Source: a virus
IMG/VR virus record: IMGVR_UViG_3300027733_000056
Coordinates: 1 to 64,000 of that record
Length of the DNA: 64,000 nucleotides
Reading direction: 5' to 3' (one strand)
In this document: positions 6,481-55,268 of the stretch, piece by piece
Numbering within the stretch: the stretch's first letter is position 1
Layout of the letters: each line of letters begins with the position of its first letter
The notes under the pieces: model-generated
Databases searched by the model: none
Told to the model about the DNA's origin: nothing
What the model saw: the letters and a program-made list of their open reading frames with translations, nothing else
Translations under genes and position numbers: made by a program

Positions 6481-8370
6481 TTACGGGGGTGGAGTTTTAA
6501 CACCTTGGTTTAGCAACGCCGCAAGGAATGCAGCATTAGCAGCAGCATTAGCACCGCCGCCCGCAGCTTGAGCTTGTCCAAGCATAGCAGCCGCAGTAGC
6601 GTTTCCAAGGCCAATATTAAGGTTAGAAATATTAGTTCCGTAAGACGTTCCCGCCGATGACGCTTGCTTATTAGCATCTGTGCCAATGCCCGCCATGTTT
6701 GACAGGTTGTTGTAAATGTTGTTACGCTGCGTTTGGTAATTTTGGAACGCATTTTGATATGCATTACCGGCGTAGTTTTGCGTGTAGTTTTGCAAGCCTT
6801 GTAACGTATTGCCCGACAATGCACCACCGCCCACGTTAGCTGCCCGTTGGTTAGCCATTTGACCCTGCTGAAGCATAAAGTCGTAGTTAGGGGCTAATCC
6901 AGAAGTAAGATCGTTTTTATCAAATTGATGTGTTAAGTACCCAGAGCCTGCGCCCATTGTGGTGGGTTGACCCGTAACGGGGTCATACATTTGATATGTA
7001 CCGCTACCAAGTTGCCCCATTTGATTCAGCGCATTTATGCCTGTGCCTTGGTATGGCTTTTGGAAACCTAATTGTGTGTCGTAAACACCTTTTAAAACGT
7101 CTTGAGAAGCCTTTGTAGCATCTTGTTGGGCTTTTAAACCCGCACCTATTGCGCCGGACGTATTTAATGCCGTAGCTGCGTTTACGCCGCCCGACAACAA
7201 TGCGGCAAGTTGCGTTCCCGTAAGGCCGGTAGCGTCTTTTAATTTTTGAAGTAGGCTTGGGTCTATTGGAACCGACGTTGGAATATTAGTTCCGGGCGGC
7301 CCTACGTCTGGTGGCGGTGGAGTGCCAGGCGTAGCTGTAGGTGGCAACGTAGGTGTTGGAGTTGGAATGTTAGACCCAGGAGGCCCAACATCAGGAGGAG
7401 GCGGTGTGCCAGGTGTGCTTGGTGGGCCACTAGGTATAGGAGGAACAACATCAGGCGTAGGCGGCAACGTAGGCGGGCCAACATTGGGAGGAGGCGGTGT
7501 TCCAGGCGTAGCCGTTGGCGGTAAAGTTGGAAAATCTGACAACGGAGTAGGCGGCCCAACATTTGGAGGTGGTGGAGTTCCAGGTGTAGCCGTAGGAGGT
7601 AATACAGGCTCTAAAGAATTAACATTAGAACCAGTTAAATTTGCAATATCTCCCAATGGCGTACCTGTGTTTGCAGGGTTAAATACGGCAGAAGTAGTTG
7701 CACCAGGTATTTGAGACAAAGCATTAGCGCCAACCGCTGAAGCTGGTATGCCAGCCGCCGCCGCTGCTTCTAAAGCAGAAGCGTTTACTCCATATCCCGC
7801 TGTGCCAACTAATGATTCAATAGCCGCAGGCGTTAATGCTGTCCCTGCTGCTCCTGCTCCAGCCAAACCTTCTGCTGCACCAGCCGCCACCGCACTTTTA
7901 CCAAACAATGAACCAATAACTGGGCCAAGGAAATATGCGCCACCTGCCAAAGCAGCTATTTTTAACAAATCACCAAAACCATGGTCACTGCTTCTATTTG
8001 CTGTGTTTTGATATTGCCCGTTTGCGTCAAAATTTACATACTGGCTGTGTCCATTGTCGTAACGATAGCCAATAGGAGGGCCATACTCTACTGATTCACC
8101 CCCCCCTCGTCTTCCACCGCCGCCTTCAGTATACGTTTGATAAAGAGGCTCCATTGTTGTGCCAAGTCTTTTTTCCTCGGCAAGTACACCGGCTGGTTTT
8201 GGCGCATCTTCTTTTTTTAATCCTGCCGCAATAGGGTTAAATTCATAACCTAAAAAAACAGGCGTGCCTCTCTCCCCTCCTCTACCCGTTTGTTGATCAT
8301 AAACGGGAACCATCCCGTACCCTTGGGTTTGAGAATATGTTTTACTTGGTTCTTGAATATCTCTTGGCAT
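6481..8370 (-). CDS. putative virion protein with Pro-rich tandem repeats
   Basis: 629 residues. An N-terminal region with DIQEPSKTYSQTQGYG is followed by a Gly/Ala-rich hydrophobic region (about 135-225). Residues about 250-370 contain several copies of a TATPGTPPPPNVGPP unit. The C-terminus is Gln/Asn/Ala-rich (NQRAANVGGGALSGNTLQG). The layout resembles internal virion proteins of aquatic podoviruses. It is transcribed just after the gp10-like gene. Role inferred from position. Confidence 0.6.
   Translation of the reverse strand: MPRDIQEPSKTYSQTQGYGMVPVYDQQTGRGGERGTPVFLGYEFNPIAAGLKKEDAPKPAGVLAEEKRLGTTMEPLYQTYTEGGGGRRGGGESVEYGPPIGYRYDNGHSQYVNFDANGQYQNTANRSSDHGFGDLLKIAALAGGAYFLGPVIGSLFGKSAVAAGAAEGLAGAGAAGTALTPAAIESLVGTAGYGVNASALEAAAAAGIPASAVGANALSQIPGATTSAVFNPANTGTPLGDIANLTGSNVNSLEPVLPPTATPGTPPPPNVGPPTPLSDFPTLPPTATPGTPPPPNVGPPTLPPTPDVVPPIPSGPPSTPGTPPPPDVGPPGSNIPTPTPTLPPTATPGTPPPPDVGPPGTNIPTSVPIDPSLLQKLKDATGLTGTQLAALLSGGVNAATALNTSGAIGAGLKAQQDATKASQDVLKGVYDTQLGFQKPYQGTGINALNQMGQLGSGTYQMYDPVTGQPTTMGAGSGYLTHQFDKNDLTSGLAPNYDFMLQQGQMANQRAANVGGGALSGNTLQGLQNYTQNYAGNAYQNAFQNYQTQRNNIYNNLSNMAGIGTDANKQASSAGTSYGTNISNLNIGLGNATAAAMLGQAQAAGGGANAAANAAFLAALLNQGVKTPPP
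7262..7620. repeat. degenerate tandem repeat encoding PPPPxVGPP units
   Basis: Imperfect copies of a unit of about 45-80 bp encode ATPGTPPPPNVGPP or PPPPDVGPP within the minus-strand virion gene. The copies vary in length and at third positions, so the array is not recent. It is Pro-rich and probably extended. Confidence 0.75.
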
Positions 8371-8379
8371 GATTTGTCC

Positions 8380-8610
8380 TTAAACGTTGTAGTATGGGAT
8401 TTTATAAGCGTTACCGTTAACGGTGACATTTATAAACCCAACCGGATTAGCGGGCAACGTTGCAGAGCCGGTGGTTGCTGTTGTGGCGCTAGAAAAATTC
8501 AACAAATTAAGAAAAAACTGTTGCCATGCGCGTGATGGACGGTTTGTGTTTGCATCCAAAAACGGCGCTTGTGGATACGGGTTTATTTGTTGAGTGTTAG
8601 ACAGTGCCAT
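8380..8610 (-). CDS. small conserved virion-region protein
   Basis: 76 residues with PFLDANTNRPSRAWQQFFLNLLNF near the N-terminus and a short beta-rich C-terminus (VGFINVTVNGNAYKIPYYNV). Start and upstream stop overlap by one base. Unit B has a protein of similar size and place (60,523-60,825) next to its own tail gene, with comparable NQLTNILRLYFNQL. This suggests a shared connector or tail-needle-like role, not proven. Confidence 0.6.
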   Translation of the reverse strand: MALSNTQQINPYPQAPFLDANTNRPSRAWQQFFLNLLNFSSATTATTGSATLPANPVGFINVTVNGNAYKIPYYNV

Positions 8611-10601
8611 TAGCTATCCCCATTCGTGGCTTTAAGATTTGCAGAAACAATGACCGCATTAACAGGGTCGCTAATAGACACTTCAAACACCCGATCACGG
8701 GCCATGCCCAAACGCCGCCAAATAGCACGGTTTTTGTATCTTCCTAATTGACCAATGTTTGCCCAATATTCCCGCGACCAAGTAGAGCCTCCGTCATTAG
8801 ACCAGCGCAACATTGCTTGTGGGTTAGTTGTTGTGTCCGTGTAGGAACTTGCCACATAACTTCCTATGATAAAAGTCATCAATGGGTCAATCGTAAAAGT
8901 AGCAGTCGGCGCAATAACATACGGGCTGCCTAAGTAGTTGCTTACAGGAATTGCGTTTACAGAAAGCCCCGTCGTGCCTACGCCAGGTTGAAATTGAAGC
9001 TGTAGTTCATCAAAGTATTGACGCTGAAAGTCTGTAACCAAATGAGGCGCACGGCGCAGCCTACGAACGTTTTGTCCGTTATCGGTGTAGTTTTGTCTAT
9101 CTAGGTAATACAGTTTTCCGTTTTGATAGTCGCCAACTAGAACTAAACCTTGGAAAGAAGCGGAACAATTACTGCGGTGACGCTGGTAAGTCCCATCCGA
9201 GGCCATTGACAACCATTTATGCCACATTCCCGTTGTTAAGTCATAAGCCCAGGTTAAGTTCAAAGTCGGAAAACTTGTAACGTAAACTTCATGGCCTTCT
9301 AGCTGATAAGTGTACGAAATTGCGTCATCAATGTATTGATTTGTAAGCGTGTTTTCCACCGCATGGTTAGAAATGCGTTTAGGAATGTAGCCTTCCATTT
9401 GCATAATTTGCGCTTGGCCTCGGTTGTTGCGAGATACATAAGCAAACGAATTACCTAGACGGGCTACCGAAAACTGAGCCGCAATGCCGTGCTGGGTAGA
9501 CGTGCCTGGAATACGCTGAAATGGAAAAGGCACTGCGCCCACATCGCTCCAAACTTCCGATGATGCCTCGCCCATCAAATAGACTTCGCGGTGGTCAACA
9601 ATCAAAGCCACTAATTTATCGGGAGCGCCATCTTTTAACGCATAGCTTGTAGATGCAGAAATGGTGCTTAGTAGGTTAGACGAACCCCATTGCTGTGTGC
9701 CTGGGTTGTTGTAGACAAAGTAATTGTCCATAATGTCTACCGATGTGCCACCACTAAACGCGCCATCCGTACTAGGCAAAACGCTAAAGTTAAGACCGTA
9801 CATTGTCTGACCAACCGCAATAGTCAAAGACGAACTGATTGTGTAAGTGCCCGTACTACCCGAACCTGTACCAAATGCGGTAACAATAGTCCCTGCGGTA
9901 ACGCCTGCGCCTTGTACTGTTTGCCCAAGGTAAATAGTGCCCGAGGCTACCGCCGAAACGGTCATGGTGGTCGCCGCAACAGTTGCCGTATATCTAGCGC
10001 CGACCGCAGCAGAGGCCATAGGCTCAGCCGCCACAGTTTGGCTAAGATTGATGGTGTAAGTGCCTACGCCACCCGACCCCGACCCCAAAGCAGTAATCAC
10101 CGTTTCTGCCGTAATCCCTATCCCCGTCAAGCCTTGGTTAGCCGTAATTGTGCCGCTGCTTACGTTAGTAACCGTTAGGGTAGTTCCGCTAATAGAACCC
10201 GTAAAAACGGCATTTGCGGGGCTAGAAATGCGCCATGTGTACCGATACGCTCCGTCAACAATATAGGCATTAATGCCGTTGTCAGAGATGCCCACCCGTC
10301 CCGATGACGAATTAAGTAGGCCAACAACCGTAGCGCTTAAATTAGACGTAAAGACGTAAACATAAGACCCGCAGACAACAACCATTTGGCTACCGCCCGA
10401 CAGGGTACGCATTCCGCGAACTTCTGCGTTGTTTAAAACGGCTTGAAGCGTTATCCCTGGCGTTGGATAAAGCGCAACCACGCCACGAACACCAGGCTGC
10501 TTGAGTGGGTCAATTTCGGGAAAGAAATTAATACACTCTTGCGCGTCTTGGTAGATCGACGGTGCTTCGTATGATGGGCCGACAAAGCCAAATTCTGGCA
10601 T
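8610..10601 (-). CDS. P22 gp10-like tail / packaged-DNA stabilisation protein
   Basis: 663 residues. The N-terminus ([27 protein letters not shown]) and the C-terminal [27 protein letters not shown], then [13 protein letters not shown], are typical of the gp10-like head-completion/tail-hub family that seals the portal after packaging. Residues about 133-196 and 204-266 hold two copies of a beta-rich insert ending in GTYTIN/GTYTIS. The same module occurs in the neighbouring gp4-like gene. It lies one base from the next gene. Confidence 0.8.
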
Positions 10602-10626
10602 TTTTAAACCTTAATAGCGGAAAACG

Positions 10627-11598
10627 TCACCTCAGGAAACCCCCACTCAAAATCCACCCAGCATCTTTAGACTTTCCAGTAAGCAGCGCATCTGCATACC
10701 TTGCGACCATTTGCGGGCGCATATTGGTGCGTTTGATTGTGGCTTTTGCTTCGCCTGCAAACTTTTGAATCATGCTAATTTGCACCGGACTAGCTTTGCC
10801 ATACATTGGCATTAGGCGTTCTGCTAGACACCAGCGCAGGGCGTTTACATAGCCTTGAGGGATGCGGATAATGTCATACATGGTTGTAAAACGGGCAAAA
10901 ATAGTGTCCGTAAACAAGTGCATTTCACCTTGGGATGGATTAGGCCAAACGCTAAGATTGCCCAAAGTATCGCCAGGGTTGTAGTACAAGGCTTTAGGCC
11001 ACGGGCCGTTAAGCGTCTTTAGACCGATCAAAGAATAGTCGTCTAAGGTTAGCACCGATATGGGATAGTCTAGGCCACCGCCGTAAATTGGCTGTCCATT
11101 GGACGTAGTGTTAATCCTTACAAAAGATGAATTTACCCGTAATGGCTTTTGATAGTAGGCCGTAATTGTTGTGCTTGCTACCGATTGGGAAATGTTTATT
11201 TGATACGTCCCAGCCTCTAAATTGTTGCCACCAGCCCCGCTAATGAACGACACAATGGACGTTCCTGGCGTAATTCCTGTGCCGGTTAGGGTTTGGTTTA
11301 AAGTAACAGCGCCGCTAGTAATGGCGGTTACTGTTAAAACATTGCCCGCAATTGAGCCTGTAAAACTTGCGCCTATTGACCCGCCTGGGCCTATTGTGTA
11401 TTGGGTTTGTCCGCTAACTATGGGAAAAATGATTTCCGTAAAGTTGTAGACCATCATGTCTTCGTTAGACCACTGATCTAACATATCGTTAAGCATGTCA
11501 AACGCATCTTGCGCCGCTTCGGGCGTTGGCGTTTCACCGGCCTCTAATGCGCCGATGTCCTTTAACGATCTAGAAACTATGTCGATTGGCTGTGCCAT
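10627..11598 (-). CDS. P22 gp4-like head-tail connector (tail accessory factor)
   Basis: 323 residues. The N-terminal SRSLKDIGALEAGETPTPEAAQDAFDMLNDMLDQWS is the hallmark of the gp4 tail accessory factor, which binds below the portal. Interrupting it at about residues 79-146 is a beta-rich insert (FTGSIAGNVLTVTAITSG, ending GTYQINISQSV), homologous to the two in the gp10-like protein. After the insert the connector sequence resumes (ALRWCLAERLMPMYGKASP). Overlaps its upstream neighbour by 22 nt. Confidence 0.82.
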   Translation of the reverse strand: MAQPIDIVSRSLKDIGALEAGETPTPEAAQDAFDMLNDMLDQWSNEDMMVYNFTEIIFPIVSGQTQYTIGPGGSIGASFTGSIAGNVLTVTAITSGAVTLNQTLTGTGITPGTSIVSFISGAGGNNLEAGTYQINISQSVASTTITAYYQKPLRVNSSFVRINTTSNGQPIYGGGLDYPISVLTLDDYSLIGLKTLNGPWPKALYYNPGDTLGNLSVWPNPSQGEMHLFTDTIFARFTTMYDIIRIPQGYVNALRWCLAERLMPMYGKASPVQISMIQKFAGEAKATIKRTNMRPQMVARYADALLTGKSKDAGWILSGGFLR

Positions 11599-46218: not shown

Positions 46219-46384
46219 GCGGGGGCAGGGGTTTTTCGTCCCCTGCCTCGACCCCGAACCCGTCCGCACCGAGGGTTTAAAGCGGGCGCTTGACCTGCGC
46301 CTGTTTGATGCCAAAGCGCAAGCCGGTATCCGCAGCGGCCTTACTGGGGTGTGGTTCTACCGCTTGCCGCCTCGGCCCGTTTGA
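46178..46384 (+). CDS. small conserved protein, VIYPWKK...VWFYR
   Basis: 68 residues starting within the primase end. VIYPWKKTRRGQGFFVPCLD, then EGLKRALDLRLFDAKAQAG and GLTGVWFYRL form a pattern I have seen in phages as a small basic protein next to primase genes. It overlaps the primase by 41 nt and the convergent giant gene by 44 nt. A GC-rich hairpin lies inside it. Function unknown. Confidence 0.6.
   Translation: MKNLKVIYPWKKTRRGQGFFVPCLDPEPVRTEGLKRALDLRLFDAKAQAGIRSGLTGVWFYRLPPRPV
46224..46247. terminator. perfect 8-bp hairpin at the convergent gene junction
   Basis: GGCAGGGG (46,224-46,231), an 8-nt loop, and CCCCTGCC (46,240-46,247). It lies where the plus early operon meets the minus late operon. 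Neither side has a proper T run after the stem, so it may act as a bidirectional pause or RNA end stabiliser rather than a standard terminator. Confidence 0.4.
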
Positions 46385-49300
46385 TTGCCTGCACGTAGCG
46401 TTCAGACTGTAACTGACGTTGCTTGTTAAGCTGGTCGATGCGCTCTTGTTTTTTATCCGCTGGTATGTTGGAGCCCCGGATAATTTCTTCTTGCTTGCGC
46501 AGCGTGCCCATGAACTTCTCATACTGCATTGCCATCGGAGCCACCATGATTTCAGCGCGGTGGTCGGCAAGGAACTCTTTGGCATCTTCGAGCTTGCCGG
46601 TCTTGCGGTAGTTATCAAATGTCGCTTTCTTTTGCAACGCATCGGTAGCCAGCTTGTACACCACATCAGCATCCTCCCCGCCGTACTTGCGTTGGAAAGA
46701 ACTACCAATCAACGGCATCTCCGATGGCCTGCGGGTAGGCGCTTCAACGGTTTCGCCAGTTTTAAATAGGCTGTCGGTAGCCGCTGCTGCCATCAAAGGC
46801 AAAGAGCCAAGGTAGCCAGACACAAGGTGCTCGATCTGAATTGGCGACAGGACAGGGGCTATCTTGCTCAGTTGCTTGGCAAGCTCAGTCGTGTTGGCGT
46901 AGTAGCGTGCTTCAGGGGACAGCTTTTGCAACCGCGCAGACTCCAACGGCGTTGCTTCAAACCCCGAGAAAAAGTTTTTGTTTGTGTAAACTTCTGCCAA
47001 TGGCTTGACGATCTGCGGCACGCCCAAAGACGAGGAGCCGGGGATAGCGCCCACAAACATATCACGCAGCGCCCGTAGCTGCTGTGGCCCATCTGTCTCA
47101 GCCTTCATAGCATCCGCAGCCGCCACGGCAGCGGAGAAAAACCAACCAAACTCGTACGGAATTGGTAGCTTCAGCGGCTCTTCCATGCCGGGTACATGCA
47201 CAAAGAAGTTGCTGTACTTGTCTCTAGGCTTGGCGTTTCTGAAGTACTCGTCGTCGTCCATCAGCATGGCGTAGGCAAGGCCAGTACCCATGAGCAGCAT
47301 GGCGTTGTTGTAGAACTTTTGTTTAATCTTCAGTTGCTCGTTAAAAGGCATGTTGCCCGAGGCTGCTTTGAACAACACGTTCAAGCCTTGGATTTGTGAG
47401 TTGAAGAAAGGTATCAGGCGGCTGGCGTATTGGATGCCGGGGGCCATGCCGCGCTTGTGAAAGTTCATCGACTCCATGACGGCAAAGTCAGCTTCGACTT
47501 CGGACAAGCCATTGGCAATTGCGTTGTCGTATACCAACGCTCGTGTAGCGGCGTCTGCTTTCATTGCTTGGCGGTCAGCCATTGCAAAGAATTTTTCAAA
47601 CGCATTCATGTCTTTGCCACTTGCAAGCTGCAAGGCAAACTTGGAAAGGTCATCCGGGTCGCCAGTGAAGATGCCGCTTTGTATCAAACCCTTTTCCAAC
47701 AGCTTGGCGGCAGTTTCGCTCTGCCCGGTGTTCATCTTCAGGTACTCACTACCCGCCTTGTAGATGGCTTTGAGTGGGCCGTAGTCCAAACCAGCGGTAG
47801 CCGCAGCCGCAAACGGGTCACGGAACAACTGGCGCAACAGATAGACCGGGGTGCGCGTCACACCAGCGCGAAGGAAGTCCCCGGCTATGGAGCCCAGCTT
47901 CAGAAACGCGGGCAGCGTCAAGCTTGCGCCCTCAAGGCTCTTGACAATAAGCTCAGCGGGGATGCCACCAAATACTGTGTCATTAGTCTGCACCCGCAGC
48001 CAACGCTTACCGTTGTCGTCGGGCTTGTTGGGGTCAGCTTCTTGTTTCCAGCGAATAACGCTGGGGTCAGTTGGCCCATCGCCCCGGTTGATTGACATCA
48101 AGTCCGTGACCTTACCTGTACGGGCGCTAAACTCCCCTTGGCCTTTACCCGCAGCTTGCATAGCGTAGGCTACATTGCGGGTAGCCATGTTGGTCATAGC
48201 CATGTCCACCAATAGCATGGTGTTGCGCGGTAGTGACTTGTCCAGCGGCAGTATTTTGGTTTCGCCGCCTTTGAGTTCGGCAAGGTACGGCTGGTGGCGG
48301 ATGTCGCCAATGGTGATGGTCTTGTCCCCACCAAGCACAAGCTGCGCAATACCGTTGTCGTTGACGCGGTAGTAAGGAACGTAGTCACCTTCTTTCAGGT
48401 AACTGTCGGCCTCCTTCTTGGTGATAGCGCCTGTCGATGCCAAGAAGCGGATCATGCCTTCGTTGTACTTGTTGTACAGATTGCGGGTTCGCTCCAGTGC
48501 ATTTTTAAGCTGCTTGTCGGAGTCCACTTGCCGCATGGCAGCATCCAATTTTTCTTGCGTAACCCCCAGCGCCCCCAAGTCCAGCTTGGTCAACCCTTTG
48601 TTGGCAGCACGTTGCGCAATCATGTAAGCCGTTGCCAGCCCCATCTTGGCTTTCCCGTCGCCGTAACGGTCAGGGATGTCAGAGACAGATGCAAAGATAT
48701 CCTTGGCGCTGTTGGCGTTGGTGGTACGCACACCCTTGAAACCCTTGTCATCGGTGTACGTCTCCAACGGGCCATCGCTCAGAGCCGCCAGCACAAGCGG
48801 CATCTTCTGGTCAGCTTTGCGCACGCTGTACATAGCTTGCTGGAACAGGCGAGAGTCGCCAAGCTGCTTGGCCCCAAGCTCCATAGCCTTACTCAACCCC
48901 GCACGCATATCGACTGTGTTCTGTTCAAACTGGAGCATCTTGTTGCCGCCAAGTTTTTCAAAGAAGGTCTTGTCCTGCGCAACGGTATTCCGCGCCAGTT
49001 CGGACAGGGCATCGTCCGAGGCGTAATCTGGCGCGTTAAGTACTTCGTTGGTCTCCCTTGTTTTTTGCCACCGTTGCATTTCATTTAACGGTTTGTTTTC
49101 CGCAAACGCTTCTTCGGTAATTTCCAAAGCATCGTTGAGCAAAGATCGTTCTTTAGGTTTGGAGAACCGGAAGAAACCAGCAAAAACATCAACCAGACGC
49201 GACAACACAGATTTATTGGGTGTTTCAGAAGGAATCTGGTCAAGTAAATCTTGAAAACCTTTGTGCGAAAAAGTTTCTGCTAAAAACTCGTGCGTATTAG

Positions 49301-52300
49301 TAAGTCCGTACACGCCTTTAGTAGTAAACCCAACCAACGCAACTTTATTAGCGCGGAAATATTTTTTTCCTTCTGGTGTTTGCAACCACTTTTCTACGGT
49401 ATTTTTTAAATGCTCAACCCGTGCATTAAAAGCGTTGTTTGTGTATAACCCACGAGATGTTGCAGCGTGCAATAACTCATGCAACAAAATTTTGGTTGCG
49501 TGCGGTGATCCTGCTGTAGAAATAGTTAAAACGTAGTTTTGTGCGGGGTTGTAGTGCCCCGCTACAGGGCGTTCTTTTCCGTCGGCTGATTTTTCAATGC
49601 CTTTTTTTGACGTCACGTATACGCGCCCATGCATGTCATCCGAGTAAGCGTTACCGAGGACTTCCGCAAGGATGTCAAACAATTTTTTGCTAAGTGGGTT
49701 GCGTGCTTTTTCTGCGGCAATACGCGCTGCTTCGGCGTATGTCTTTCCGTGGTATGGACTAGATGTGTCCATTTCTGTGCCATATTTTTTGTCGATCTGC
49801 CTACCTTTAGCTGCAACCGCATCGTCAATATCTTGTTGAGAAAGTTTTGGGCTTTCTTTGGCAGTTTTCTTAACAGTGGGTGAAAGAACCGCTGGAGTCT
49901 TTTTTGGGATAGGGTTGCTTTCGCTTGAGTCAAGACGCTCGTTTGTTACGTTTTCAAACGTTTGAGTAGCTTCAGATACTGCACCAAGTTTTTCCTGTTG
50001 CTCTTTTGTAATGTCTTCGGCTTCAAGCAGTGCTTTTGCTGCATCAAGATTACTGCGGCTAATTTCCAACCTGTTGTCCGCTGCTTCGTACGCAGCCTTT
50101 GCGTCTTCCCTAACTTGCGCAGGCTGGCCTTTTGATGCTTCATACGCCTCGGTTGCTTTTTTCCAGTTAATTGCTGCCTCGTTGGCTTTTATCTGCGCCG
50201 CGTCTATGTTGGCTTGCAACCGTTCTAGTTGTTGCTGCCTATTGCTTATTGGTCTGCCTGAGCGCTTGCTCTCGGTCAGTTTAGCCACGTTGCTGGTTAC
50301 GCCGCGTGTCACGGGGCCAGTGCGCGTCACACTTGATGGGGCTACGTTGCCGCGCTCCGATGCTTTGCGTTGAGGCGCTTGTGTCTCTGTTTCTTCAGCC
50401 GTTTTACCTTGGCGCTCCAAGGCTTCCACTTGCTCTATCCGCTGCGCAACTGAGTCGCGTTTGAGCCGGAGTATTTCCGTTTGCCGGAAAGCAGCGCCCT
50501 GCCCTTTAAAAGCAAAGACGGGGCTGGAACGTGCGCCCCCCGGTGTTTTGTTACGTTCACTTGGTATCAACTGCGATACTTTTACTTTGCTGACTTCAGG
50601 GTACTTGCCGGGTGGCAGGCTGGCAAACGTAACTAGCCCTGCTTCTTTAGCCTTTTGTTTTTCAAAATGAGACAGAGACTCCGCCCGCGCTGCTTTAACT
50701 TTGTCTTCCAACGCATTGGCTTGGTTTTCCAGCGTGCCCAATTCCAGCTTCAACTTCTTTAAAGGCCACGCAAGGATTTGTTTTGCGTACTCTTTGTTGG
50801 ACTTGGCAATACCTTCGGTCTTTAGTTGCTCGTTGTAAAACTCGTTGGCTTCTTGCAGCGCAGATTCCAAACGCATAATTTGCATTTGCTGTGGCTTGCC
50901 GGGAAGACCTTCTTTTTGTTTGTCTTCTAGTTCTTGTTTTAGCTCGTTAATTTCTTTTTCAATCGCGTCAATGTTGTCCATTGCCGCATTGGTGATTTGG
51001 TTTTGTACTTTGCCTGCGTACGTTGTTGACGTTATTGGCGCTACAGAAATGCCGCCCGGCAAAGCAGTTTTTTGTTTTGCTCCATACAGTCGGACGTTTT
51101 CTTCTTTTGTGCGCTGTGCCCGTGCTTGGTCACGCAGCGTAGCAAGTTGAGCCTCAATACCTGCACGGCGTTTTTTAACCGCAGCGGCAGCTTGTTCGTA
51201 TGCTTTAGTGGAAGGGCTCTTGGCAGCTTCTTTACTTGCTGCGTCTGCTTCCTCTTTGGCAACAACGGCATTACGCAAGTCAACCTGCGCTTGAGCAATT
51301 TCCTTTTTCAACACTTCGGGGTCTTTGCCACTATGTTCTAAATCCCACAGGGTCTTTTGTGCATCCATGACCGCAGGTATCTTGTCAATGTTGTCTTGCG
51401 TTTTAGACACGCTATTTAGCGTGCTGCGCAAGTCTGCCAGCATTGCCTGTGTGTTTTCTGCCGTTGTGCGCAGCTTACTAAACTGCGACATCTCTTGCCG
51501 TAGTTTTTTGTTTTGCCGCTGAAGCGTGTCTACCAAGACGCGGTTGTCTTTAATTTTTTTAAGCGCTGCCTCAAACATCACTATTGTTTGGGTGTCTTCC
51601 TGCCCAAAAACAAACGCGGGGGCTTCATACCCAATCTCACCAAACCCAAGTTTGGACTCTATCTGGCGTTTGAGACTTGCAATTTCGTTTTTGTACGCTT
51701 GCGTTTTCTCTGGTGCGGGTGCGGCTCCCTTTTTCTGAAGCTCCCTTAATTGCGCAGTTGCCGCTTCCAGTTTTGTTTCCAGCGGGGCAACGCCTGACAG
51801 CATTTTATTTAGTCTGTCAATTTGCTCTTTACGTTTAGCAACCGCTTGCCTTGCCTCAGCAGCTTGTTTGTCCAACTCAGCCAGAGTCTTTGTGTATACG
51901 GCTACATCTTGGGTGAGCGCTTTGATTTCTTTTTCGTTGTCCACCGATGTCATAGCAAGTATGCTGCTGAACATCGGGTCGGCTTTAAGTTTGCCGTACT
52001 GCTGGAGCAAGGCTACAACGTCGTCGTTGTCTTTGAGGATACTCTTGGCTGTGCCGCGCAAGTCAGATTCTGTAACCAATGCGTTGAGCTTGGCTTCCAG
52101 TTCATTGATTAAGCCAAAGTAGTACGTGACCTTTGGCGCTTGCTGCTTATGTACTTTGGTGCGTGCTTCAGCTTCGCGCATCTCTTTAACAATTTTGCTG
52201 TCAAGAAAACGGCGGAACATACCGGGGGTAGCGCGGCCCAGTGCGGTTGTGGGTACTTCCTTCTCAGGAAAAAGGGACATCTGGTCAATGTCTTTTTCTG

Positions 52301-55268
52301 ACTGCGCTAGTTCTTCTTTAACCCGCAGGTGCGTTTCCAGTTCTCGTGGCAGAGACAGTGGTTTGGCTTTGGCGCTTGGCCCGCGCATTGTTCCGATATT
52401 TTCAAGTTGCTTTGCTGCTCTTTGGACATTAGCTTGCTGTGCGGCTTTAGGGTTTGCTGCTATAGCTGCTTTGAGCGCTTGGTCAGCATTCATTGCGGGG
52501 GCCGTTTCAGCACGACCCCGTACGCCCACAACAGTTGGCCCGGCGCTAGTCATAACGCCTTGTGCAACATCTTCTTGCTTAATTAAACTGGCTCGACGCG
52601 CCGCTTCATTTTTAGGAACGCCTTCGCCAACAAGCTGTTCATATTTTTCTTTTCTAACTTTAGCAAGCGCTTTAGTTCTTTCACTATCACTGAGGTTGTA
52701 CGTTCTTCCAGCAAAACCGCTACTAACTTTTTCCGCCGCCGTAGGCGTAGTTACGCTACCGGGAAGTCCCGTAACCGTAGAAGGCAAAGCTGCGCCTGAC
52801 TCGCGTAAAGCCTCAGCCATAGCGCCCTTACCTTCTCCACCACGAGCGGTAGTTTCAGCACGTTTAGTCGGAGCCCCTTCACCGTATACCCCTTCCTCAC
52901 CGCGCTCAATCTTGCCAAGTTGCTCGTCGAGCATAGTGAACAGGGACGCTTCGTTGCCAATTGCCGTGTCTTTCTCACCGATGTTGGCGTCTGCTCGGCG
53001 CAGGAATGCGTAAGCCTCATCACTTAAGTCTTCACGCAGTTGAAGCTGGTTAACCCGATCACGCAGCGCTGCTGCTGCTGTTACTGGCTCTGCCGTACCT
53101 TCTTGGCGAGGGCGCAGTTTGAATGGGGCTGGCCCGCCGCGTTGGGGCTGAGGTTGCCCTGCGGGTTGTGTTTCTTCCGCAGTAGGTAATTCTTCGCCTT
53201 GCGTCAAAACTTTTTTGACTTGGTTTAATGCAGTGGACGCGCCCGTGTTTGGGTAAGGCTGCTCAAACAAATCAAATTGTGGTGATGCAGAAATAGCCCC
53301 CGCTGGGCGTGCACCAATACGTTGAAGCGCTTGTGACTCGCCTAATTTGCGGGTGTGTTCTGCATATGCGGCGTCATATTCTGCGTCAAGACGAGCCAAA
53401 GTTTCTGCACGTTGGTCGCCCAGTTCTTTGCTGCGACGATCACGAAATTGTTCCCGCGTTTCAGATGTTGCTTGAAACGGCTGCATTTCAAACTCTTGCT
53501 GCGTCTTGGGAACAACGCGGCTTTGCAGGTCTTTTAGTTTTATACGAAGTGCAATTTGCGCATCAATATCGCCGTTTGTTTCCGCGTTTGCCAATTGCTT
53601 TTGTGCTACGGCAATTTGTTGTTCTTCCGGTTTTGGTAATTTTTTTACAGCCTCACGGGCTTGCGCTAAAGCATCAACGGCTTGCGCAAATTTTGGTTGC
53701 GCTGTTTGAAGCTGTTCTAACGTAAGTGTTGGGGCCTGTGTCTGGAACTGCGCAACCAGTTGCTCCAGCATGCGTACTTGCTGGCGGGGGTCATTCTGAG
53801 CCAGTAGCGTTTCTGGCGCATTGAACTTGCCCCGGTTACCAACCGTTGCATCGTACATGTCAAACGTCTGCTGCAACTGGGCTTGCTTACTTTCGGGGCC
53901 ATACAGGTTGTCTTGCTTTTCTCTTGCAAGAACGTCTTCAGCAGTCCCCGTGCGCTCCACCGGTTTGCCTTGGAGATCCAACTCCGGAGTCTTGGGCGTT
54001 GGCAGGTTGCCAAACATATCCACTTGCTGGAGCTGTTCTGTGTTTTTAATTGCCTCGGGCGCAGGTGCAGGCTCTTTCGGCAGGAACTGGCGGTACTGGC
54101 GGTACTCTTTGTTTGTATCTTTGAGCACCGTAGCGTGCTCGGCAAGTGCCTGCTGCGTCTCGCGGTTGTCTTGCTTCTGATCCTCAGTGAGCTTGTTGCC
54201 CTTGCTGGCCTTGTGAATCTGGCCTTCCAATTCTTTCTGTCTTTGCTCAGCAGCAACGTAGTCGGCTTGTGCTTTTTGGGCGTACTCAGGCGTTTGTTTT
54301 GTGGCTAGGGTAGCTGCGTCTAGCTTGTCCTGCTCGACTCGGGCTACGTCAGCTTGTTTCTTTTGCTCTTCGCGTTGCTGTTTGTCAAACCGGCTTTGCT
54401 CCGCACCGCGCTCCACACGGCGACCCACAGGGGCCAAGATGCCGCCAAGCACCGCGCCGCCAATGAAATTGTCAAAGTATTCCTTGCGTGCTTCGGGGTC
54501 GTTGATATTTAACCCGGCTTGCATGCGCTCAAACACCTGCTGACCGGCTTCGGTCAGACCCTCAACCCCCATCGTTCTACCAGTAGTGAGCAAGTAATCC
54601 GCAGCGGTTTTCTTCAAGCCTTCCTTGGCTAAGTCCTGCGCAGCTTTCTCTGATAGGTTAAAGCCCAGCTTGCCAAACATCTTACCCATGCCGGGGATCA
54701 TGCCTAAGCTCACTGTGTCCAGCGCAGCCATAGGGATAGCGGCTAGTGCTGCATTAACTACATCTGTCTCGCCCAGCTTCTTGCCCTCTTGGACTTGGCG
54801 GGATATGTTCGACCCGGTGAACTGCGCAGCAGAAGCAAGACCCGCCGCACCCGCAGCCGCTAAACCTTCAGGAGCCAAAAATGCCGCAGCAGCCGGAGCC
54901 ACCATGTATGGCAGGGAGCCGCCTGCCAACTCACCAATCTTGGTAAACGGGGCTTCTAAGAAACCTTCTTGGGTTGGTGCAAAGGTTTTCTTTTGGTAGG
55001 CTTCTTGTTCAGCTCGGTACTTTTCCGCAGCAGGCAAATCCATGATGCCCGCACGCCCAGCTAAACCGGCAATGTCCCCCTTGAGAGAAGAAACGCCTGC
55101 TTTGAGCGCGGGCATGAACCCAGACTTGGGCTGTTCTTCGGGGGCTTTCTGCGTTAACCCAAAAGCTTGAGGATATAGTTTTTCTGCTGCGCTTAACGCC
55201 GATGCGGGGTCTTCGCCCTCTTTTAGCGGAAACAAATTACCATCAGGAAGTCTCACGTATTGGGGCAT
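46341..55268 (-). CDS. giant polyvalent virion protein with zincin and LPD38-like region
   Basis: 2,975 residues (8.9 kb). The N-terminal 300 residues contain Ala/Gly-rich hydrophobic segments. Long coiled-coil regions (about 300-1,800) follow, rich in Gln, Glu, Lys and Ala. His1930-Glu-Leu-Leu-His1934 within LLHELLHAATSRGLY, plus downstream THEFLAETFS, is a zincin metallopeptidase. The C-terminal third (LKLGSIAGDFLRAGVTRTPVYLLRQLFRDP, PFFNSQIQGLNVLF) matches the large-polyvalent-protein domain LPD38. Such proteins are packaged and injected with DNA. Shares the ejection slot with three unit A genes. Confidence 0.85.
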   Translation of the reverse strand: MPQYVRLPDGNLFPLKEGEDPASALSAAEKLYPQAFGLTQKAPEEQPKSGFMPALKAGVSSLKGDIAGLAGRAGIMDLPAAEKYRAEQEAYQKKTFAPTQEGFLEAPFTKIGELAGGSLPYMVAPAAAAFLAPEGLAAAGAAGLASAAQFTGSNISRQVQEGKKLGETDVVNAALAAIPMAALDTVSLGMIPGMGKMFGKLGFNLSEKAAQDLAKEGLKKTAADYLLTTGRTMGVEGLTEAGQQVFERMQAGLNINDPEARKEYFDNFIGGAVLGGILAPVGRRVERGAEQSRFDKQQREEQKKQADVARVEQDKLDAATLATKQTPEYAQKAQADYVAAEQRQKELEGQIHKASKGNKLTEDQKQDNRETQQALAEHATVLKDTNKEYRQYRQFLPKEPAPAPEAIKNTEQLQQVDMFGNLPTPKTPELDLQGKPVERTGTAEDVLAREKQDNLYGPESKQAQLQQTFDMYDATVGNRGKFNAPETLLAQNDPRQQVRMLEQLVAQFQTQAPTLTLEQLQTAQPKFAQAVDALAQAREAVKKLPKPEEQQIAVAQKQLANAETNGDIDAQIALRIKLKDLQSRVVPKTQQEFEMQPFQATSETREQFRDRRSKELGDQRAETLARLDAEYDAAYAEHTRKLGESQALQRIGARPAGAISASPQFDLFEQPYPNTGASTALNQVKKVLTQGEELPTAEETQPAGQPQPQRGGPAPFKLRPRQEGTAEPVTAAAALRDRVNQLQLREDLSDEAYAFLRRADANIGEKDTAIGNEASLFTMLDEQLGKIERGEEGVYGEGAPTKRAETTARGGEGKGAMAEALRESGAALPSTVTGLPGSVTTPTAAEKVSSGFAGRTYNLSDSERTKALAKVRKEKYEQLVGEGVPKNEAARRASLIKQEDVAQGVMTSAGPTVVGVRGRAETAPAMNADQALKAAIAANPKAAQQANVQRAAKQLENIGTMRGPSAKAKPLSLPRELETHLRVKEELAQSEKDIDQMSLFPEKEVPTTALGRATPGMFRRFLDSKIVKEMREAEARTKVHKQQAPKVTYYFGLINELEAKLNALVTESDLRGTAKSILKDNDDVVALLQQYGKLKADPMFSSILAMTSVDNEKEIKALTQDVAVYTKTLAELDKQAAEARQAVAKRKEQIDRLNKMLSGVAPLETKLEAATAQLRELQKKGAAPAPEKTQAYKNEIASLKRQIESKLGFGEIGYEAPAFVFGQEDTQTIVMFEAALKKIKDNRVLVDTLQRQNKKLRQEMSQFSKLRTTAENTQAMLADLRSTLNSVSKTQDNIDKIPAVMDAQKTLWDLEHSGKDPEVLKKEIAQAQVDLRNAVVAKEEADAASKEAAKSPSTKAYEQAAAAVKKRRAGIEAQLATLRDQARAQRTKEENVRLYGAKQKTALPGGISVAPITSTTYAGKVQNQITNAAMDNIDAIEKEINELKQELEDKQKEGLPGKPQQMQIMRLESALQEANEFYNEQLKTEGIAKSNKEYAKQILAWPLKKLKLELGTLENQANALEDKVKAARAESLSHFEKQKAKEAGLVTFASLPPGKYPEVSKVKVSQLIPSERNKTPGGARSSPVFAFKGQGAAFRQTEILRLKRDSVAQRIEQVEALERQGKTAEETETQAPQRKASERGNVAPSSVTRTGPVTRGVTSNVAKLTESKRSGRPISNRQQQLERLQANIDAAQIKANEAAINWKKATEAYEASKGQPAQVREDAKAAYEAADNRLEISRSNLDAAKALLEAEDITKEQQEKLGAVSEATQTFENVTNERLDSSESNPIPKKTPAVLSPTVKKTAKESPKLSQQDIDDAVAAKGRQIDKKYGTEMDTSSPYHGKTYAEAARIAAEKARNPLSKKLFDILAEVLGNAYSDDMHGRVYVTSKKGIEKSADGKERPVAGHYNPAQNYVLTISTAGSPHATKILLHELLHAATSRGLYTNNAFNARVEHLKNTVEKWLQTPEGKKYFRANKVALVGFTTKGVYGLTNTHEFLAETFSHKGFQDLLDQIPSETPNKSVLSRLVDVFAGFFRFSKPKERSLLNDALEITEEAFAENKPLNEMQRWQKTRETNEVLNAPDYASDDALSELARNTVAQDKTFFEKLGGNKMLQFEQNTVDMRAGLSKAMELGAKQLGDSRLFQQAMYSVRKADQKMPLVLAALSDGPLETYTDDKGFKGVRTTNANSAKDIFASVSDIPDRYGDGKAKMGLATAYMIAQRAANKGLTKLDLGALGVTQEKLDAAMRQVDSDKQLKNALERTRNLYNKYNEGMIRFLASTGAITKKEADSYLKEGDYVPYYRVNDNGIAQLVLGGDKTITIGDIRHQPYLAELKGGETKILPLDKSLPRNTMLLVDMAMTNMATRNVAYAMQAAGKGQGEFSARTGKVTDLMSINRGDGPTDPSVIRWKQEADPNKPDDNGKRWLRVQTNDTVFGGIPAELIVKSLEGASLTLPAFLKLGSIAGDFLRAGVTRTPVYLLRQLFRDPFAAAATAGLDYGPLKAIYKAGSEYLKMNTGQSETAAKLLEKGLIQSGIFTGDPDDLSKFALQLASGKDMNAFEKFFAMADRQAMKADAATRALVYDNAIANGLSEVEADFAVMESMNFHKRGMAPGIQYASRLIPFFNSQIQGLNVLFKAASGNMPFNEQLKIKQKFYNNAMLLMGTGLAYAMLMDDDEYFRNAKPRDKYSNFFVHVPGMEEPLKLPIPYEFGWFFSAAVAAADAMKAETDGPQQLRALRDMFVGAIPGSSSLGVPQIVKPLAEVYTNKNFFSGFEATPLESARLQKLSPEARYYANTTELAKQLSKIAPVLSPIQIEHLVSGYLGSLPLMAAAATDSLFKTGETVEAPTRRPSEMPLIGSSFQRKYGGEDADVVYKLATDALQKKATFDNYRKTGKLEDAKEFLADHRAEIMVAPMAMQYEKFMGTLRKQEEIIRGSNIPADKKQERIDQLNKQRQLQSERYVQAIKRAEAASGRTTPQ

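Follow-up and report, generated by a model that had tools for sequence, protein, structure and literature searches.

A beta-rich module inserted in two head-tail connector proteins of a P22-type phage recurs in unrelated phage virion proteins

Two head-tail connector proteins encoded by the virus record IMGVR_UViG_3300027733_000056 share a segment of about 70 residues, which raises the question whether this segment belongs to the connectors proper or is a separate domain that has entered them, and what it might contribute to the phage particle. We analyzed positions 1 to 64,000 of this record (hereafter the window), which cover most of its 64,697 bases (IMG/VR). The phage encodes a portal, a coat protein and a terminase of the P22 type. 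Its gp10-like head-closure/tail hub protein (8610..10601, minus strand; 663 amino acids) comprises a beta-propeller core and two inserted modules, and matches phrog_578 (Hc3; 2e-95) in two stretches. The gp4-like head-tail adaptor (10627..11598, minus strand; 323 amino acids) carries one inserted module and matches the SU10_adaptor family (PF24175; 2.8e-8) with 34.9 bits, above the gathering cut-off of 27. The cores of both proteins fall into the same families as those of P22 gp10 and gp4 (phrog_578 and SU10_adaptor PF24175). AlphaFold2 models, computed from alignments of 57 gp4 and 55 gp10 sequences (pLDDT 82.6 and 88.2, respectively), are consistent with these assignments: the gp10-like model superimposes on P22 gp10 (8eap_D; VIA Z 37.8, 447 residues aligned, rmsd 2.5), and the gp4-like model has the adaptor fold of P22 gp4 (9pgg_Ax; VIA Z 14.6, 112 residues aligned, rmsd 2.3). 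The window also encodes a DNA-ejection-like protein (6481-8370, minus strand; phrog_598 at residues 393-615), the middle of which is a proline-rich run of near-repeats (PTATPGTPPPPNVGPP). A giant protein of the polyvalent type is encoded at 46341-55268 (minus strand; 2975 amino acids), with an LPD38 domain at its C-terminal end (residues 2680-2854); no Pfam match was found for the four large reading frames that follow on the same strand.

The initial annotation of this locus had described two copies of a repeated unit in the gp10-like protein and one copy in the gp4-like protein. A profile sets the limits of these units at residues ~129-199 and ~200-272 of the former and ~75-150 of the latter; on the minus strand of the window they occupy 10005..10211 (copy 1; residues ~131-199), 9786..10004 (copy 2) and 11149..11376 (gp4 copy). 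Smith-Waterman alignment yielded scores of 162 for copy 1 and copy 2, 167 for copy 1 and the gp4 copy, and 136 for copy 2 and the gp4 copy, while the scores of 2000 composition-preserving shuffles for each pair averaged 43-47 and peaked at 83, 71 and 76, in the same order. Since the observed scores lie 12-17 standard deviations above the shuffles, the similarity exceeds what the common Thr/Gly/Ser composition of the units would produce; these alignments bear out the repeat and argue that the three ~70-residue units are homologous. The sequence motif quoted for the unit fits copy 1 and the gp4 copy well. Copy 2 deviates from it, reading YTATVAA, MTVSAVASG and GAGVT and departing from FTGSI(S/A)G, GTGIT and SQ(T/S)VA; the element LTxTxITSG is found literally in the gp4 copy only. 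A search of all six frames of the window with a profile of the three units revealed no further copy.

When the gp10-like protein is aligned with P22 gp10, its residues 131 and 271 fall opposite residues 125 and 126 of the P22 protein; the alignment jumps residues 132-270 without the loss of a single P22 residue, and the core is continuous on both sides of the tandem pair. When nine gp10 proteins were aligned, all eight others showed one unbroken gap where the units lie. Named gp10 relatives mostly align from residue ~280 onward, or in two blocks that omit the units, and in a structural comparison the gp10 proteins of P22, Pan3 and Pam1 align to the model over nearly their full length without the units. 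The unit of the gp4-like protein is placed between YTIGPGG and the next strand; it is absent from P26218 and MW202557, PBR31 has a divergent insert instead, and P22 gp4 is devoid of the entire beta region 53-157. The P22 connectors thus lack the unit, as had been proposed, by alignment for both proteins and by structural comparison as well for gp10. Sister phages, the P22 alignment and the structural comparison all present the unit as an inserted module lying outside the connector core.

In the models, each unit begins and ends with a long strand stretch, with a pair of short strands in between (gp10 copy 1: residues 131-150, 156-160, 168-171 and 180-199; gp10 copy 2: 202-221, 228-231, 239-243 and 251-270; gp4 copy: 76-95, 103-105, 114-120 and 131-148). 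As we read them, the long stretches are hairpins, and the unit would be a compact beta domain. Confidence within the units is high (pLDDT of 84 to 96 in ten-residue blocks), with the exception of one block of the gp4 unit (64). The gp4 unit (residues 76-150) resembles residues 9-77 of chain 1 of the Arthrobacter phage Bridgette entry 8eci (Z 6.8, rmsd 2.1, 64 residues aligned, 27% identity), and EF1A/SelB-type barrels, which are like domain II of EF-Tu (Z 6.7-7.2, rmsd 2.3-2.6, 72-74 residues aligned, 4-14% identity), although Z scores below 8 are middling and can reflect merely a common arrangement. Profiles of 9 and 19 modules searched against the PDB did not list the Bridgette chain (E up to 1 and 10, respectively), and we regard a relationship between the two as a lead that the model provides. 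Other matches of the module profile to PDB sequences (antibody light chains, titin, unrelated enzymes) were rejected as chance matches, as was a match to alpha-latrotoxin, which is confined to short stretches with E values of 0.14 or worse. An Ig- or lectin-like fold had been envisaged for the unit. A Pfam scan of all nine module variants with E values up to 5 listed five families, none of them Ig, Big or lectin; neither Pfam nor NCBIfam holds a model for the module; and the fold matches listed comprise the Bridgette chain and the EF-Tu-like barrels, with no Ig or lectin chain among them. These results lend that expectation no support, and the fold of the unit probably differs from that of Ig domains.

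The sets of close relatives were collected with module-containing queries and are biased toward carriers, so that the following counts, made among the matches listed, are not population frequencies: 134 of 152 gp10 reading frames with both ends have two units, eight have three, one has four and nine have none; 141 of 144 gp4 reading frames with both ends have one unit and three have none; and among unique full-length close relatives, 124 of 128 gp10 and 137 of 137 gp4 proteins are carriers. Some gp10 reading frames are long (713-835 amino acids in L161, L188, L197, L202, L214 and L225); four modules were detected in L161, three each in L197, L214 and L225, and two in L188 and L202 despite their length. 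Unique full-length proteins related to those of P26218 and PBR31 are free of the unit, both for gp10 (0/73 and 0/12) and, as judged with the module profile, for gp4 (0/61 and 0/11). An intermediate pattern is seen in MW202520, MW202674, L123, L127 and L142, where the gp10 insert is absent and the gp4 unit is kept. In a tree of 75 gp10 cores, built after the units had been cut out, one branch (100/98) splits 39 unit-less from 36 unit-bearing rows; presence or absence is hence a single change on the sampled gp10 tree. Because the nearest unit-less gp10 clade (L004, L005, L123, L127, L132 and L142) has the unit in gp4, the simplest reading is that gp10 gained its units later than gp4. The GenBank records of L004 and L005 (MW202520 and MW202674) annotate the gp4-like adaptor as 'portal protein'.

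Duplication of the unit had also been suggested. On a tree of the modules, which is built from few columns and poorly supported at its deep forks, the first gp10 copy, the second gp10 copy and the gp4 copy fall into lineages of their own (1, 2 and 1 changes), each clustering with its own orthologues, and copies within one protein are no more alike (0.508) than copies from different proteins (0.502). These separate lineages argue against a recent duplication of the gp10 pair, and the proposal, if meant for recent times, is not upheld. Gene conversion in recent times between the gp10 and gp4 copies was likewise rejected: copies from the same genome are no closer than copies from different genomes, both for the first gp10 module and gp4 (0.488 vs. 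0.484) and for the second (0.475 vs. 0.475).

Estimates from 150 pairs of close relatives per protein gave dN/dS values of 0.075-0.114 for the modules and 0.052-0.069 for the flanking cores. The units are maintained by purifying selection, slightly looser than that on the cores. Their composition sets them apart, with 55-60% T+S+G+A vs. 29-31% in the cores, 1.3-3.5% charged residues vs. 13.5-18.2%, and 2-4% Trp/Tyr vs. 4-8%. Mean entropies of strands and loops (0.80 and 0.90 in the first gp10 module, 0.94 and 0.87 in the second, 0.90 and 0.66 in the gp4 unit) revealed no hypervariable patch or binding loop in any of the three. Few aromatic residues, low charge and no variable patch are a poor fit with a specific glycan receptor and lend such a role no support.

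A search of a bacterial genome collection with a natural variant of the module uncovered 22 loci, and two further variants added viral contigs. With gp10 and gp4 excluded, 79 module-bearing reading frames were grouped by their non-module sequence into 36 clusters, 27 of which were scanned for the family of the host protein. Fourteen of these matched a virion family outside the module, two matched families of unknown function and 11 matched nothing besides the module; a clear match to a non-virion family occurred in none of the 27. The hosts include tail sheath proteins (phrog_205/DUF3383), a major capsid protein (Phage_capsid_4), lambda gpD-type decoration proteins (HDPD), cement proteins (XM1 gp53/E217 gp24), a neck terminator (PF23961), the head protein phrog_1912, baseplate J and the baseplate wedge protein phrog_438, DUF2612/phrog_587, phrog_3287 and phrog_3645, a tail spike, a tail fiber (weak match), and the head decoration protein phrog_9703, which also has a Pfam match to GDSL lipase. 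In this last case (L431:1799-3379), the module is fused to the lipase-like domain and the PHROGs match is to head decoration. Across the module families, length is similar and the Gly/Thr positions and the GTY motif are conserved. On the module tree, neither sheath modules (8 changes among 8 rows) nor cement modules (6 among 6) cluster according to the protein that carries them, which suggests that modules have been exchanged between host proteins. Together with the 14 clusters, this supports the earlier view of a mobile unit that occurs in other phage virion proteins.

A prophage-like contig of a Sulfuritalea metagenome-assembled genome (L366, 5644-15047) carries seven modules in five reading frames within 9 kb, among them a sheath protein with two copies, a neck terminator and a head protein. 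Recent spread inside this contig is not supported, as its modules share 32-63% identity with each other and one of the sheath modules has 76% identity to the module of a cement protein from a different genome. Among bacterial genomes, the module was found in two of 299 genomes of the phylum of the seed, which is itself one of the two. Among 50,697 named phage records, one query returned two records at 1e-5, a second variant six at 0.01 and a third none, where the low-complexity filter of BLAST may conceal some. In the proteins scanned here, phrog_38233 ('tail fiber protein') and phrog_21413 match through the module itself. Calls of 'tail fiber protein' that are based on phrog_38233 can therefore mislabel sheath, capsid and connector proteins, and a dedicated module profile would correct such annotation.

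Taken by itself, and with any adhesive role left out of this judgment, the interpretation of the unit as a mobile, dispensable domain inserted in virion proteins is one that we hold with good confidence. Many virion proteins that are unrelated to each other would have received an independently folding beta domain of ~70 residues within a loop or hairpin. In the lineage studied here, the gp4 adaptor would have received one copy first, and the gp10 hub would afterwards have acquired the tandem pair at the site equivalent to P22 gp10 125/126; the unit would face outward and serve as an accessory display domain. Two readings would do without insertion or without common descent. If the unit belonged to the connector core itself in this group of phages, its presence in all listed close gp4 relatives and nearly all listed close gp10 relatives would be expected; the nearly full-length alignment of unit-less gp10 from P22, Pan3 and Pam1, the unit-less gp10 of the sister clade and the occurrence of the unit in dozens of unrelated protein clusters contradict such a role in all relatives and make it highly improbable for the group. 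That Thr/Gly/Ser-rich beta segments converged in composition without common descent could draw on the 55-60% T+S+G+A of the modules, yet the margin of the alignment scores over composition-preserving shuffles and the likeness of length, Gly/Thr positions and GTY motif across families leave this idea scarcely credible.

What the inserted domain does is a matter of more guarded judgment. A generic, weak and multivalent contact between the particle surface and cells or extracellular polymer is our first guess, with reinforcement second, given that the domain works on unlike host proteins; we advance it tentatively, at somewhat below even chances. The same domain sits on sheaths, capsids, decoration proteins and connectors, for which a generic surface property is easier to conceive than a fitted cement. 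Stabilization would have the units pack on neighboring neck subunits, from the gp4 ring to the gp10 ring, and reinforce the particle. Proteins gp4 and gp10 are neighbors in P22-type tails, and both are carriers here; the unit also occurs in cement proteins of the XM1 gp53/E217 gp24 type, gpD-like decoration proteins and minor head proteins, a chain of the Bridgette entry is among the listed fold matches, and a hypervariable patch is absent. Cementing needs fitted contacts, however, whereas the unit is found in sheath, baseplate, spike and capsid proteins of differing geometry, the tree mixes sheath modules with cement modules, and the gp10 of sister phages copes without it; we consider this role rather unlikely. 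A classical carbohydrate-binding domain, lectin- or Ig-like, that chooses hosts appears more doubtful still. Its promiscuity would parallel the spread of the Ig-like domains of phages, which have been proposed to bind glycans weakly (PMC9230969), a proposal tested in phage Douge (PMC13033339), but none of the nine variants has a Pfam match to Ig, Big or lectin families, Trp and Tyr are scarce, charge is nearly nil and variability in the loops does not clearly exceed that in the strands.

Relatives of Xanthomonas phage PBR31 carry their insert at the same gp4 site as the module, and the two have a common core around GASVSGSGIPAGATV. Comparison by hhalign gave an E value of 4.8e-5 and a probability of 68 over 23 columns only; the middle alone aligns and the GTGTGG/GTY segment is absent from the insert. 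Single-profile matches of the insert were weak (0.011 to 0.3), and none was significant with the module profile. The PBR31-type insert is thus a probable distant relative of the module, on the strength of this short shared stretch.

Domain mosaicism of phage proteins is well documented (PMC10684548), and the closest parallel is given by the Ig-like domains of tailed phages (Fraser et al. 2006, as cited in PMC9230969 and PMC13033339). According to the two citing papers, such domains occur as inserts in sheath, capsid, decoration and tail proteins and are thought to have an accessory role in weak glycan binding or stabilization; glycan binding was tested in phage Douge (PMC13033339). The module is likewise small, beta-rich and present in unrelated virion proteins. 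Unlike them, it has no Ig or Big match in Pfam, consists of ~70 residues with two long hairpins, and has EF-Tu-domain-II-like barrels among its listed fold matches. A keyword search of the literature found no paper on the module, which may be worded differently in print.

On balance we lean slightly toward the view that the module represents a further class of promiscuous surface domain in phages, one whose fold is probably not that of Ig. It would be a small barrel of neutral character, rich in Thr, Ser and Gly, that moves among the head, neck, sheath, baseplate and fiber proteins of environmental phages and may dress the particle at several levels with a common surface property. Several hosts are occupied at once in two cases, namely in the five reading frames of the prophage-like contig and in gp4 plus gp10 here. 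For virion domains that spread between unrelated proteins while their function is uncertain, the Ig-like domains of phages are the standard example. A second such domain, probably of another fold and unusually neutral, would provide an independent test of their purpose, since placements and effects common to both classes cannot stem from the Ig fold. The gp10 clade, whose related members have the same connector either with the insert or lacking it, makes effects on particle stability, adsorption and ejection directly testable.
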